Assembly (NCBI GenBank): GCA_026627305.1 | Contig: JAPNVD010000003.1 | Location: forward strand, 186,001-250,000 | Length of the DNA stretch: 64,000 bases | Direction: 5' to 3' | Origin: Sulfolobaceae archaeon | Lineage (GTDB): Archaea; Thermoproteota; Thermoprotei_A; Sulfolobales; Sulfolobaceae | Shown: positions 42,960-50,425 of the stretch, piece by piece | Position numbering within the stretch: position 1 is the stretch's first letter | Layout: every line of letters begins with the position of its first letter | Made by a program: the position numbers and the translations under genes | The notes under the pieces: model-generated | Told to the model about the DNA's origin: nothing | The model's input: the letters and a program-made list of their open reading frames with translations, nothing else | Databases searched by the model: none

Positions 42960-43472
42960 ATGAATCAGTCCCAAATAGCGCTGCTTTCTGTGTTGCTGTT
43001 ATTCCTGCCGCTAATACCTGCAGCTATGGATGATTTTACTGCATTTGCTGTAACAGGCGCAATAGGTTTTATACTAGTCTTATACTTACTTTATCATTAT
43101 AAGCCTTGGAGATCGACTAAAGCGGCGATAAATTCAATGTACTTCAGCGGTATTTTCGCTTTAGGTGTTGCAGTTGGAGTTTTCTTAGCTTTGCCTTTTC
43201 ATCCTAGGCATATAGCGGAGTTAGGATTTGTGTACAGTTTACCGTTTATCGTTACTTTACTCATGGTAGTTGCCAGGCTAGTCCCTAAACTAGCATTAAA
43301 GGAATTGGTGACTTTAGGAAACGGGATATTCATGATGCTCGTAGTGATAATAATTGGGGCAATAATTGGAAGGTTTTTCCACAACTTCTATGAAACTTTA
43401 GTTATCTATTCAGGATTCCTGGTTTTAGGTGTTTTAACCTACCTCTATATCCATCAAGGTGTGAAACAGTGA
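42960..43472 (+). CDS. uncharacterised membrane protein (5-6 TM)
   Basis: 170 residues. Five or six hydrophobic segments are visible (about 7-22, 28-46, 60-80, 90-107, 118-137, 145-163). There are few charges between them except KPWRSTK and HPRH. No transport signature. CTTTAAATAT lies about 25 bases upstream of the ATG, so the gene appears leaderless. It overlaps the next flavoprotein gene by 4 bases (GTGA), so it is likely to work with it. Confidence 0.82.
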   Translation: MNQSQIALLSVLLLFLPLIPAAMDDFTAFAVTGAIGFILVLYLLYHYKPWRSTKAAINSMYFSGIFALGVAVGVFLALPFHPRHIAELGFVYSLPFIVTLLMVVARLVPKLALKELVTLGNGIFMMLVVIIIGAIIGRFFHNFYETLVIYSGFLVLGVLTYLYIHQGVKQ

Positions 43473-44470: not shown

Positions 44471-44922
44471 GCCAATACTACCTAGACGACATAGATAAAA
44501 AGATACTGAACATCCTAAAAGAAGACGCTAGGACTCCCTTTTCAAAAATAGCAAAGATGTTAAACCTAAGTGAAGCTACCATTCACATGAGGATAAAGAG
44601 GCTAATAAATTATGGGATTATAAAGGGGTTCTACGTAGATATTGATCCTGAGAAATTAGGGTTAAGTGTTGTTGCCTTTGTCTTAATAAAGGCTGATCCG
44701 AAGAGGTATCGTGAAGTGGCTGAGAAGTTATCGGAGATGAGAGAGGTGTATGAGGTTCATGAAGTTACAGGAGAGTACACCGTATTGATAAAGGTTAGGG
44801 TATCTAATAGGGAGGACTTGGCTAAAGTATTAGATATGATAGGCAATATAGATGGCGTTAACGGAACCTATACGATGTTCGTCCTCAGATCTCATAAGGA
44901 GAATAAATCTCCTGAACTTTAA
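44467..44922 (+). CDS. Lrp/AsnC-family transcriptional regulator
   Basis: 151 residues. The DNA-binding HTH is at about 6-52 ([23 protein letters not shown] then [12 protein letters not shown]), followed by a RAM domain (about 65-145). Such proteins respond to amino acids or other small ligands. It is coupled to the flavoprotein gene by ATGA, so it may regulate its own operon. It differs from the RAM-only protein at 5999, with which it could pair. Confidence 0.93.
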
Positions 44923-44978: not shown

Positions 44979-44986
44979 CTTATAAC
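44979..44986 (+). promoter_or_regulatory. TATA box for aRF1 gene
   Basis: CTTATAAC centred near 44982, preceded by an A-rich BRE-like AAAACT. The expected start is about 45009, so ATG 45014 would be at or very near the 5' end. This supports initiation at 45014 rather than at TTG 45051. Confidence 0.6.
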
Positions 44987-45013
44987 TGATTTCCAATACT
45001 CTTTTTGATTGGG

Positions 45014-46115
45014 ATGAGTCTTTAGTAATTACCTTTTAACAAAGGAGGAATTGAAAGCTCTAATAAAGGAATTGAAAAAATGGAAGGCTCCAGCTACAGT
45101 GTTGCTATCCCTTTATATACCTCCAGGTAGACCAGTTGCTGATGTAGTTAACCTGTTACGACAAGAGGAGTCAATAGCACAAAACATAAAGCTGAAACGA
45201 ACTAGAGATGCTGTGACTTCAGCGATAAGTGCGGCAATAGATAGGTTAACGCAGGTCAATAAAATTCCACCTAATGGGCTGGCACTTTTTTGCGGTGAGA
45301 ATTTCGAAACTGAAGAGTTCAAGTGTTTCATGTTTTCTCCGCCAGAAAAAATAGATATATTCTTCTATAGGACCGATAAAGAGTTTCACATCGAGTTCTT
45401 AGAGGATATGGTTGAAGAGGGAGATGTCTACGGGTTAATAATAGTTGAGAGGGATCAGGCTACAATTGGACTTCTTAAAGGTATAAAGATCGAGGTTCTA
45501 GAAGAGATTGAAGGTTTTGTTCCAGGAAAGCATATGATGGGAGGTCAGTCACAAAGAAGAATTGATAGGATTATAGAGGAGATGTACCACAATTTCATAA
45601 AAGACGTTGCCGAAAAGGTCAACCAGTATTTCATACCTTATATAGAGGCTAAGAAGATGAAGGGAATCGTCTTGGGAGGACCTGGCTATGCAAAGAAGGA
45701 CTTCATGGAGTTAGATGAGCTGGATTATAGGATTAAGAAGCTAATATTTCCTCAGTTGTTTGATGTTCCCTATCAAGGAGAGGCTGGATTAAGGGAGTTA
45801 GTTATGGACGCTAGTGAACTACTAAAGAAGACTAAATATATAGAGGTCGAGAACGTGCTTGATGATATAAAATATAACTTAGCTAAAGATACAGGACTTG
45901 TAGTTTATGGAATAGATTTAATTAAGAAGGCTATGGAGATGGGGGCTTTAGAGTCGTTGATAATATATGAGGATCCTTCACTAGAGCCCTTAGCGAAAGA
46001 AGCTGAGCAGTATAAGGTAAAGGTATTTATAGTAAATGACGAGCTGCCAGACGCAGAGTGGGTTAAGAAAACCTTTGGTGGTGCTATAGGTAAGTTAAGG
46101 TATAAGGTATTCTGA
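45014..46115 (+). CDS. prf1: peptide chain release factor aRF1, with +1 frameshift at codons 3-4
   Basis: 366 residues if read as 45014-45022 joined to 45024-46115. ATG AGT CTT is followed by TAG TAA; skipping one T (45023) continues AGT AAT TAC CTT TTA ACA AAG GAG into the main frame. The added peptide [12 protein letters not shown] completes helix 1 that eRF1 proteins need before [15 protein letters not shown] (NIKS-like) reads stop codons and MGGQSQRR (GGQ) triggers hydrolysis. Without frameshifting only TTG 45051 is available, with GGAGG just 2 bases before it, which is too close and cuts into helix 1. The event is either programmed or an indel. Confidence 0.8.
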
Positions 46116-46757
46116 TTAGATGTTTTTCCTCCTCTTCATCTCTTCTAATATCTTATCTAGGGATACAGGAGGTGTTGTTATCCCATAACTTTCTTTAAAC
46201 ATTTTTTCTAGCTCTTCAACGCTTGGGACTCTTTTGATCTCTTCAATTATCTTCTTGGTTAAGTTTATCATATCTTCCCAATAGTTCCAAGGATACATAA
46301 ACCAAGCCCATTCATTAACGCAGTCTCCAAAGAAGTCTGGTACATATTTACTAGTGGGTTTGATTACCTGCATAGAGGCAGTCTTTATCTCCTCTGGTCT
46401 AAAATTCTCTTCAACAAACCTTTTAGCTAAAATAAAACTGTCTCCAGTGTCAGCTATATCATCCATTATTATTACTCTCTTACCTGATAGGTTAAGTGTA
46501 TAGGGGTACTTTATCTTAGCCTCTGGTGTAGCCCCAGCTGTGGTAACCCAATGTTCGACCTTTATGCTTAAGACATCTAATACTCCTAAATAATCAGCCA
46601 AAAGCCTGGCTGGAACCATTCCTCCCCTTGCTATCGCTATGATTATATCAGCCTGATAGTTTTGTTCTTTAATCTTTTCCGCCACTTTAAGAGTCCAGTT
46701 AGTTACATCATCCCATGTTACAACTTTTACGGGAATTTTAGGCAAGGTTTTTCCCAA
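46116..46757 (-). CDS. purine phosphoribosyltransferase
   Basis: 213 residues. The PRPP loop is [14 protein letters not shown] (near 94-107), and the N-terminal [25 protein letters not shown] is the family start. Likely xanthine/guanine or hypoxanthine phosphoribosyltransferase of the archaeal GPT type; base preference is not clear. Its stop abuts that of aRF1. It is divergent from MTA phosphorylase, another purine salvage enzyme, across 72 bases, so they may be co-regulated. Confidence 0.9.
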
Positions 46758-50340: not shown

Positions 50341-50425
50341 GCGGGGGTGCCCGAGCCAGGTCAAAGGGGGCGGACTGAGGCTCCGCTGGCGTAGGCCTGC
50401 GCGGGTTCAAATCCCGCCCCCCGCA
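50341..50425 (+). tRNA. tRNA-Leu (anticodon GAG)
   Basis: 85 bases with a long variable arm, as in Leu tRNAs. Acceptor GCGGGGG (50341-50347) pairs with CCCCCGC (50418-50424). The anticodon stem GCGGA/TCCGC closes the loop CTGAGGC, giving GAG for codons CUC and CUU. The T arm is GCGGG-TTCAAAT-CCCGC. The discriminator is A and CCA is not encoded. No intron is present. Confidence 0.96.

Follow-up and report, generated by a model that had tools for sequence, protein, structure and literature searches.

The window, that is, the whole 64-kb stretch of DNA analysed, contains the gene of the archaeal release factor aRF1. In a profile search of the window, the protein matched TIGR03676 (aRF1_eRF1) with 426.5 bits against a cut-off of 234.7, and all three eRF1 domains (Pfam eRF1_1, eRF1_2 and eRF1_3) were present. 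An Lrp/AsnC-like regulator ends at 44922 on the 5' side of the gene, and a convergent ORF occupies 46116-46757 on the 3' side. The features on which the analysis rests are the following.

44980..44985 (+), TATA-like box TTATAA, its centre about 31 nt ahead of the ATG
45007..45013 (+), probable short 5' leader GATTGGG (family consensus GATYAGGG), its start placed by the distance from the TATA-like box
45010..45015 (+), weak word TGGGAT, overlapping the start codon and able to pair with the 16S 3' end of relatives
45014..45025 (+), zero-frame mini-ORF ATG AGT CTT TAG; ATG AGT CTT plus a stop in 31/31 Sulfolobaceae
45020..45026 (+), CTT TAG T, where a +1 slip is predicted; 19/31 Sulfolobaceae have CTT TGA C; prfB consensus in PMC3711429
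45021..46115 (+), aRF1 reading frame, +1 relative to the ATG
45051..45053 (+), in-frame TTG, a proposed alternative start; TTG there in 10/31 Sulfolobaceae, not conserved
50341..50425 (+), tRNA-Leu with anticodon GAG (L204), the expected reader of CTT

The zero frame reads ATG (45014-45016), AGT (45017-45019), CTT (45020-45022), TAG (45023-45025) and TAA (45026-45028), exactly as described in the original prediction. Around the same site, the aRF1 frame reads TGA (45015), GTC (45018), TTT (45021) and AGT (45024), followed by AAT and TAC; it is open from 45018 to 46115 and closes with TGA at 46113-46115. The TGA at 45015 overlaps the ATG, which begins one base ahead of it, and no ATG, GTG or TTG was found in this frame upstream of the TTG at 45051. 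A ribosome that passed over one base after CTT would fuse MSL to the aRF1 frame (MSL-SNYLL... in the window). The prediction that such a skip enters the aRF1 frame was confirmed by checking the frames and by the TIGR03676 and Pfam matches. These results suggested that the aRF1 gene appears readable only through a one-base skip at a stop codon. In the window, CTT makes up 14% of the Leu codons and AGT 19% of the Ser codons.

Promoter and Leader

We compared 31 Sulfolobaceae genomes, the window's own among them. In 29, the best TATA-like box lies 33-38 nt ahead of the ATG; the distance is 31 nt in the window and 26 nt in the remaining genome. Leader positions -8 to -6 and -4 to -1 were 90-100% identical over the 31 genomes, with the consensus GATYAGGG, from which the window departs with GATTGGG. 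Archaeal transcription starts about 26 nt after the TATA box. Since the box sits 33-38 nt before the ATG, the leader should be about 7-9 nt long, which would probably place the 5' end of the mRNA close to the conserved GAT. The ATG had been described as leaderless-type, 31 bases after the TATA centre; the distance was correct, but the box position in the family suggests that the mRNA is probably not strictly leaderless.

Conservation of the Site in Sulfolobaceae

On both strands of the 64-kb window, we counted 732 mini-ORFs (ATG or GTG to a stop, 2-5 codons), of which 39 precede a +1 frame open for at least 100 codons; 13 of these 39, the aRF1 mini-ORF included, have no in-frame start upstream. 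The arrangement is thus not beyond chance when the window sequence is considered alone. Chance is excluded because the arrangement is conserved in all 31 Sulfolobaceae genomes (family f1). When the aRF1 starts were aligned, ATG AGT CTT was followed by a stop in every one of them (TGA in 29, TAG in 2), an aRF1-frame TGA overlapped the ATG, and no in-frame ATG, GTG or TTG preceded the conserved part of the protein. With the next base included, the stops were TGA C in 19 genomes, TGA T in 7, TGA G in 2, TGA A in 1, TAG T in 1 (the window) and TAG C in 1. The likeness to bacterial prfB that had been proposed for the site is therefore closer in the relatives than in the window, as CTT TGA C occurs in 19/31.

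The sequence GATGAGTCTTT was unvarying across the Sulfolobaceae aRF1 starts. In the 30 full-length genes, 136 columns have an invariant amino acid (Met and Trp excluded), and only two of them, the GTC and TTT of the site, keep one codon; none of the 134 such columns outside the site does so. Only 4 of 366 third codon positions were unvarying in these genes. We also compared the proteins with PDB 8hku chain ARF1, which we take to be the Sulfolobus acidocaldarius entry of PMC10516650. The chain was identical at 186/186 compared residues to the products of two loci (L006 and L007), both with CTT TGA C, and at no more than 148/186 residues to those of the other 29 loci. By this identity, S. acidocaldarius should carry the same site, and its aRF1 gene appears to read CTT TGA C.

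Distribution over the Order and Beyond

To count as a site, a start region needed an ATG or GTG opening a mini-ORF of no more than six codons, in which an NTT codon precedes the stop and from which a +1 shift leads into the aRF1 frame. We read 114 start regions from 65 genera, comprising all 31 Sulfolobaceae and 83 of 155 others among the matches listed of 186 genomes; the regions were taken from the best-scoring matches and hand-picked for genus spread before their sequences were seen. Fourteen further loci were read and kept out of the counts, several of them being the same contigs. The start codon, NTT and stop recurred at 75/114 loci and in 40/65 genera of the GTDB order. By family, the site was present in f1 (31/31), f10 (19/19), f3 (9/9), f4 (4/4), f2 (9/12), f5 (2/3) and f11 (1/3), and missing in f6 (0/12), f7 (0/2), f8 (0/13) and f9 (0/6). 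Staphylothermus- and Thermogladius-labelled genomes fall in f10, and Pyrodictium-labelled ones in f8. The proposed circuit would be dispensable, because families f6-f9 (0/33 loci) are without such a site.

The site and a conventional start tended to avoid each other. An in-frame start was counted as an ATG, GTG or TTG 8-24 codons before the anchor. On this count, 68 loci had only the site, 35 only the start, 7 of the 75 site-bearing loci had both, and 4 loci had neither (Fisher p 6e-18 over the 114 loci, with relatedness ignored). The stops at the 75 sites were TAG (43), TGA (30) and TAA (2), and C directly followed the stop at 53/75 loci in 29/40 genera, the window having T. The slip codon was CTT at 35 loci, ATT at 23, TTT at 15 and GTT at 2; NTT is built into the site definition, so that its frequency outside f1 is no independent evidence. 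A YTT slip codon followed by T was found in 31/31 f1 sites (CTT) and 19/19 f10 sites (CTT or TTT), whereas f2-f5 and f11 use ATT or GTT. The nine f2 sites have a GTG start and a mini-ORF one codon longer than that of f1, with ATT TAG still in phase. Many f10 sites contain a run of five Ts (ATG GGT TTT TAG C).

Beyond the order, the site occurred at 1/8 loci from other families of the class (L127) and at 1/28 loci of the phylum (L143), both of which also have an in-frame start. On a tree of 53 aRF1 proteins, the site state needs four changes, a count that cannot separate gain from loss; the tree was built quickly and has ten open forks, four of its rows carried no score, and the atypical G044 and G076 were scored as shift. 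The four changes would fit a single gain once f7 and f9 had diverged, together with loss in f6, in f8 and in part of f11.

The four loci with neither a site nor an in-frame start differ from one another. L076 has ACG where its congener L075 has ATG, and L100 has ATT TCT ATT TAG C without an ATG or GTG. L114 falls outside the definition with a shift-like start in which TAT TAG C replaces NTT TAG C. L117 has neither a slip site nor a standard in-frame start. As a separate observation, L116 and L102 have an in-frame GTG and yet retain TTTAG at the old slip position; the frameshift has possibly been lost there.

Complementarity to the 16S rRNA Upstream of the Slip Codon

The 16S 3' end was GGATCACCTC in five 16S genes (four from f1 and one from f5). 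Because the assembly breaks the 16S gene of the window's genome and lacks its 3' end, the tail was assumed from relatives. We scanned the mean pairing energy of 9-base words with GAUCACCUCA, with two f5 loci left out. In each of three family groups (73/75 loci), the strongest pairing lay at a nearly constant distance of 11-12 nt upstream of the slip codon. The mean energy there was lowest in f2 (-8.8 kcal/mol, 9 loci), followed by f3, f4, f10 and f11 together (-7.5, 33 loci) and by f1 (-5.0, 31 loci), where the trough was broad. None of 100 base shuffles reached the observed energy in any of the three groups, the -12/-11 position for this test having been picked after an earlier scan had shown it. 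The combined f3, f4, f10 and f11 group showed a further trough, 20 nt upstream of the slip codon and 14 upstream of the ATG, which is likely the ordinary initiation signal.

Typical words were GAGGGAU overlapping AUG and GGUGAUC overlapping GUG; many relatives have AGGGAT or GAGGGAT where the window has TGGGAT. The printed spacer between the word and the slip codon was 3 at 42/76 loci, which corresponds to 4 nt with the unpaired end base counted, and 2 (3 nt) at 4/76. In f1, the modal spacer was found at 19/31 loci, the best pairing lay at GAUC further upstream at 9, and the remaining 3 loci followed neither pattern. In the window itself, the word pairs weakly (-4.8 to -4.9). TGAG at 45015-45018 had been suggested as the Shine-Dalgarno-like word. 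The scan of relatives did not favour this choice, placing the word around AGGGAU and running into the start codon; the pairing predicted for the window (GGGAUGAG) does include TGAG. Collectively, the results suggested that pairing likely helps the slip in f2-f4, f10 and f11 and may do so in f1.

Proposed Mechanism and Alternative Explanations

Bacterial RF2 reads UGA and UAA. Archaeal aRF1 reads all three stops (PMC3521657), and the use of TAG, TGA and TAA at the sites fits a factor of this kind. Based on this property and the likeness to prfB, we infer autoregulation of aRF1. In the proposed mechanism, a short leader and AUG would open a three-codon frame, AUG AGU CUU, closed by a stop. When aRF1 is plentiful, the ribosome with peptidyl-tRNA-Leu on CUU would terminate. 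When aRF1 is scarce, the stop would stay unread, the ribosome would pause, and the tRNA could slip by one base from CUU to UUU and thereby enter the aRF1 frame. The predicted product would begin with MSL-SNYLL... in the window and with MSL-DKY... in many relatives. Any of the three stops at the site could sense the level of aRF1, because aRF1 reads all three. Base pairing between the 16S 3' end and the word that closely precedes the slip codon would probably aid the slip, at least outside Sulfolobaceae. It is by analogy with prfB that we infer the slip and where exactly it happens, the contribution of pairing and the feedback on the aRF1 level. On the evidence of the compared sequences, aRF1 very probably depends on an obligatory autoregulatory +1 frameshift. 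Some points count against it: in the window itself, the stop is followed by T and not C and the 16S-complementary word is weak, and the ATT slip codon of most f2-f5 sites argues against a slip there, because the tRNA reading ATT should re-pair poorly with TTT.

The main alternative is a +1 shift that is real and obligatory and proceeds at a fixed rate without sensing the aRF1 level. A C after the stop weakens termination in prfB, and its lack in the window would suit a fixed rate. So would the +1 shifts of Euplotes at stops, which according to PMC10235951 play no regulatory role. We nevertheless consider this alternative unlikely: a slip codon followed by a stop is present in 31/31 Sulfolobaceae, in the gene of the stop reader itself, whereas a fixed-rate shift needs no stop, and the use of three different stops over the 75 sites is expected if the omnipotent aRF1 is the sensor.

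Alternatively, translation might start in the aRF1 frame, either at a non-standard codon such as GTC 45018 or at a downstream TTG or GTG, leaving the ATG unused. The GTC is unvarying in the 30 full-length Sulfolobaceae genes, but other families have, for example, GTT, GCT, GTA, CTA, ATA, GGA or GCA there. The TTG at 45051 is present in the window and had been offered as a possible start; the codon occurs at this position in only 10/31 Sulfolobaceae. In 14/31, the first in-frame ATG, GTG or TTG lies past codon 20, and up to codon 45, and those late starts come after residues (e.g., L18-W21, A25, T26 and L28-Y32) that do not vary among the 28 proteins aligned from the order. In a structure model (mean pLDDT 84.5, 69 for the first ten residues; pTM 0.48), the first helix comprises residues 8-19 and the TTG corresponds to residue 11, so that a start at 45051 would, on this model, remove the first turn of the helix. 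Downstream TTG, GTG and ATG starts were ruled out, none being conserved across Sulfolobaceae, and the explanation as a whole is very unlikely.

RNA polymerase slippage or RNA editing could drop one T and place AUG AGU CUU GAC in frame. The five-T run of many f10 sites would suit slippage; in Sulfolobaceae, and at the ATT sites of f2-f5, the run is no longer than TTT, which is too short for known polymerase slippage. The stop codon and the 16S-complementary word would also be left without a role, and we judge this explanation even more improbable than a start in the aRF1 frame.

A strain-specific indel or an assembly or sequencing error, which the original prediction had kept in view, would be conceivable for a genome of 41 contigs that is 79.5% complete, with no second member of its genus among the genomes searched; it is extremely improbable, since ATGAGTCTTAGT without the extra T, the form expected of an indel, was absent, the extra base is present in all 31 Sulfolobaceae, and many of the 30 other genomes with the same arrangement are single contigs. 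The very short ORF before the gene could also be a uORF with termination and reinitiation in the aRF1 frame. This reading is of negligible probability: no in-frame start for reinitiation is conserved, and a uORF would not need a +1-phase overlap with NTT before its stop.

Comparison with Known Recoding Systems

The obligatory, autoregulatory shift proposed for aRF1 resembles that of bacterial prfB, whose consensus YTT_TRA_C was given by GeneTack (PMC3711429) in an analysis of 1106 genomes, 77 of them archaeal. Neither aRF1 nor eRF1 is mentioned in the GeneTack main text (PMC3711429). In prfB, a high RF2 level leads to termination at UGA, and a low level allows the CUU tRNA to slip to UUU (PMC5009743); the spacer of its internal Shine-Dalgarno word is 3 nt (PMC5009743, PMC12421855). 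Common to both systems are a brief ORF in the zero frame, a CTT or TTT codon directly ahead of its stop, a main frame in +1 and a product that reads its own stop (PMC3711429, PMC5009743, PMC12421855). This frame layout without an in-frame start was found in 31/31 Sulfolobaceae and at 68/114 loci of the order. The C behind the stop (53/75 aRF1 sites) is a further likeness, but the window has T; a nearby upstream word that can pair with the 16S 3' end recalls prfB as well, but is weak in Sulfolobaceae and in the window. The two systems differ in that the aRF1 mini-ORF has 3-6 codons, whereas the E. coli prfB stop is codon 26; the 16S-complementary word of aRF1 overlaps the start codon and has a modal spacer of 4 nt instead of 3; and aRF1 uses TAG, TGA or TAA and can have ATT or GTT as the slip codon. 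The aRF1/eRF1 family is unrelated to bacterial RF2 except for the GGQ motif (PMC3521657). The aRF1 site would therefore work like prfB without being a prfB.

Closer by protein is the eRF1-like gene of Mimivirus and Megavirus, an eRF1-type class-I factor with recoding at its own stops, which differs from aRF1 in being viral and in combining frameshift and readthrough at two recoded stops (PMC3521657). The same paper states that release-factor autoregulation is absent from the eukaryotic and archaeal homologues; the present sequence data would contradict this statement for one archaeal order. The fucA1 gene of Saccharolobus solfataricus is a programmed frameshift from the same archaeal family, but it shifts in the -1 direction at an A-AAA-AAT heptamer and encodes no release factor (PMC8211752). 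The haloarchaeal virus HSTV-2 has a predicted +1 shift on the archaeal ribosome, unlike aRF1 in a viral tail-protein gene, and its source calls the shift very likely (PMC5009743). In their accessible text, reviews name a single archaeal programmed frameshift, a -1 event (PMC8211752, PMC9855744), to which predicted cases in a haloarchaeal virus and magnesium chelatase have been added (PMC5009743). The accessible part of PMC12421855, which treats prfB, does not mention archaea. A literature search, with most subscription papers outside its reach, returned no report of an aRF1 frameshift site and no relevant match to the aRF1 N-terminal peptide strings.

Collectively, we consider it probable that the prfB circuit evolved independently in a non-homologous release factor, as an ancient obligatory autoregulatory +1 shift with an early gain and several losses, and that this is the first such shift in an archaeal cellular gene. 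If so, this type of feedback has evolved repeatedly, in proteins that are not related to each other, and the first +1 programmed frameshift of an archaeal cellular gene could be studied in a genetically tractable archaeon, S. acidocaldarius. Ordinary gene calling would then misplace the N-terminus of aRF1 in these genomes.

A Look-Alike Elsewhere in the Window

A similar sequence, ATG AAA CTT TAG T, lies at 43390-43402. The gene that follows, labelled FAD-dependent reductase-like from its sequence, has its GTG start 79 nt further on, at 43469. The homologous frame has 331-334 residues in 7 of 12 other genomes and 338-379 in the other 5, compared with 358 in the window. We rejected the sequence as a second shift site; judged on these frame lengths, it looks like chance, because the frame is closed just upstream of the homologous start in 7/12 genomes.
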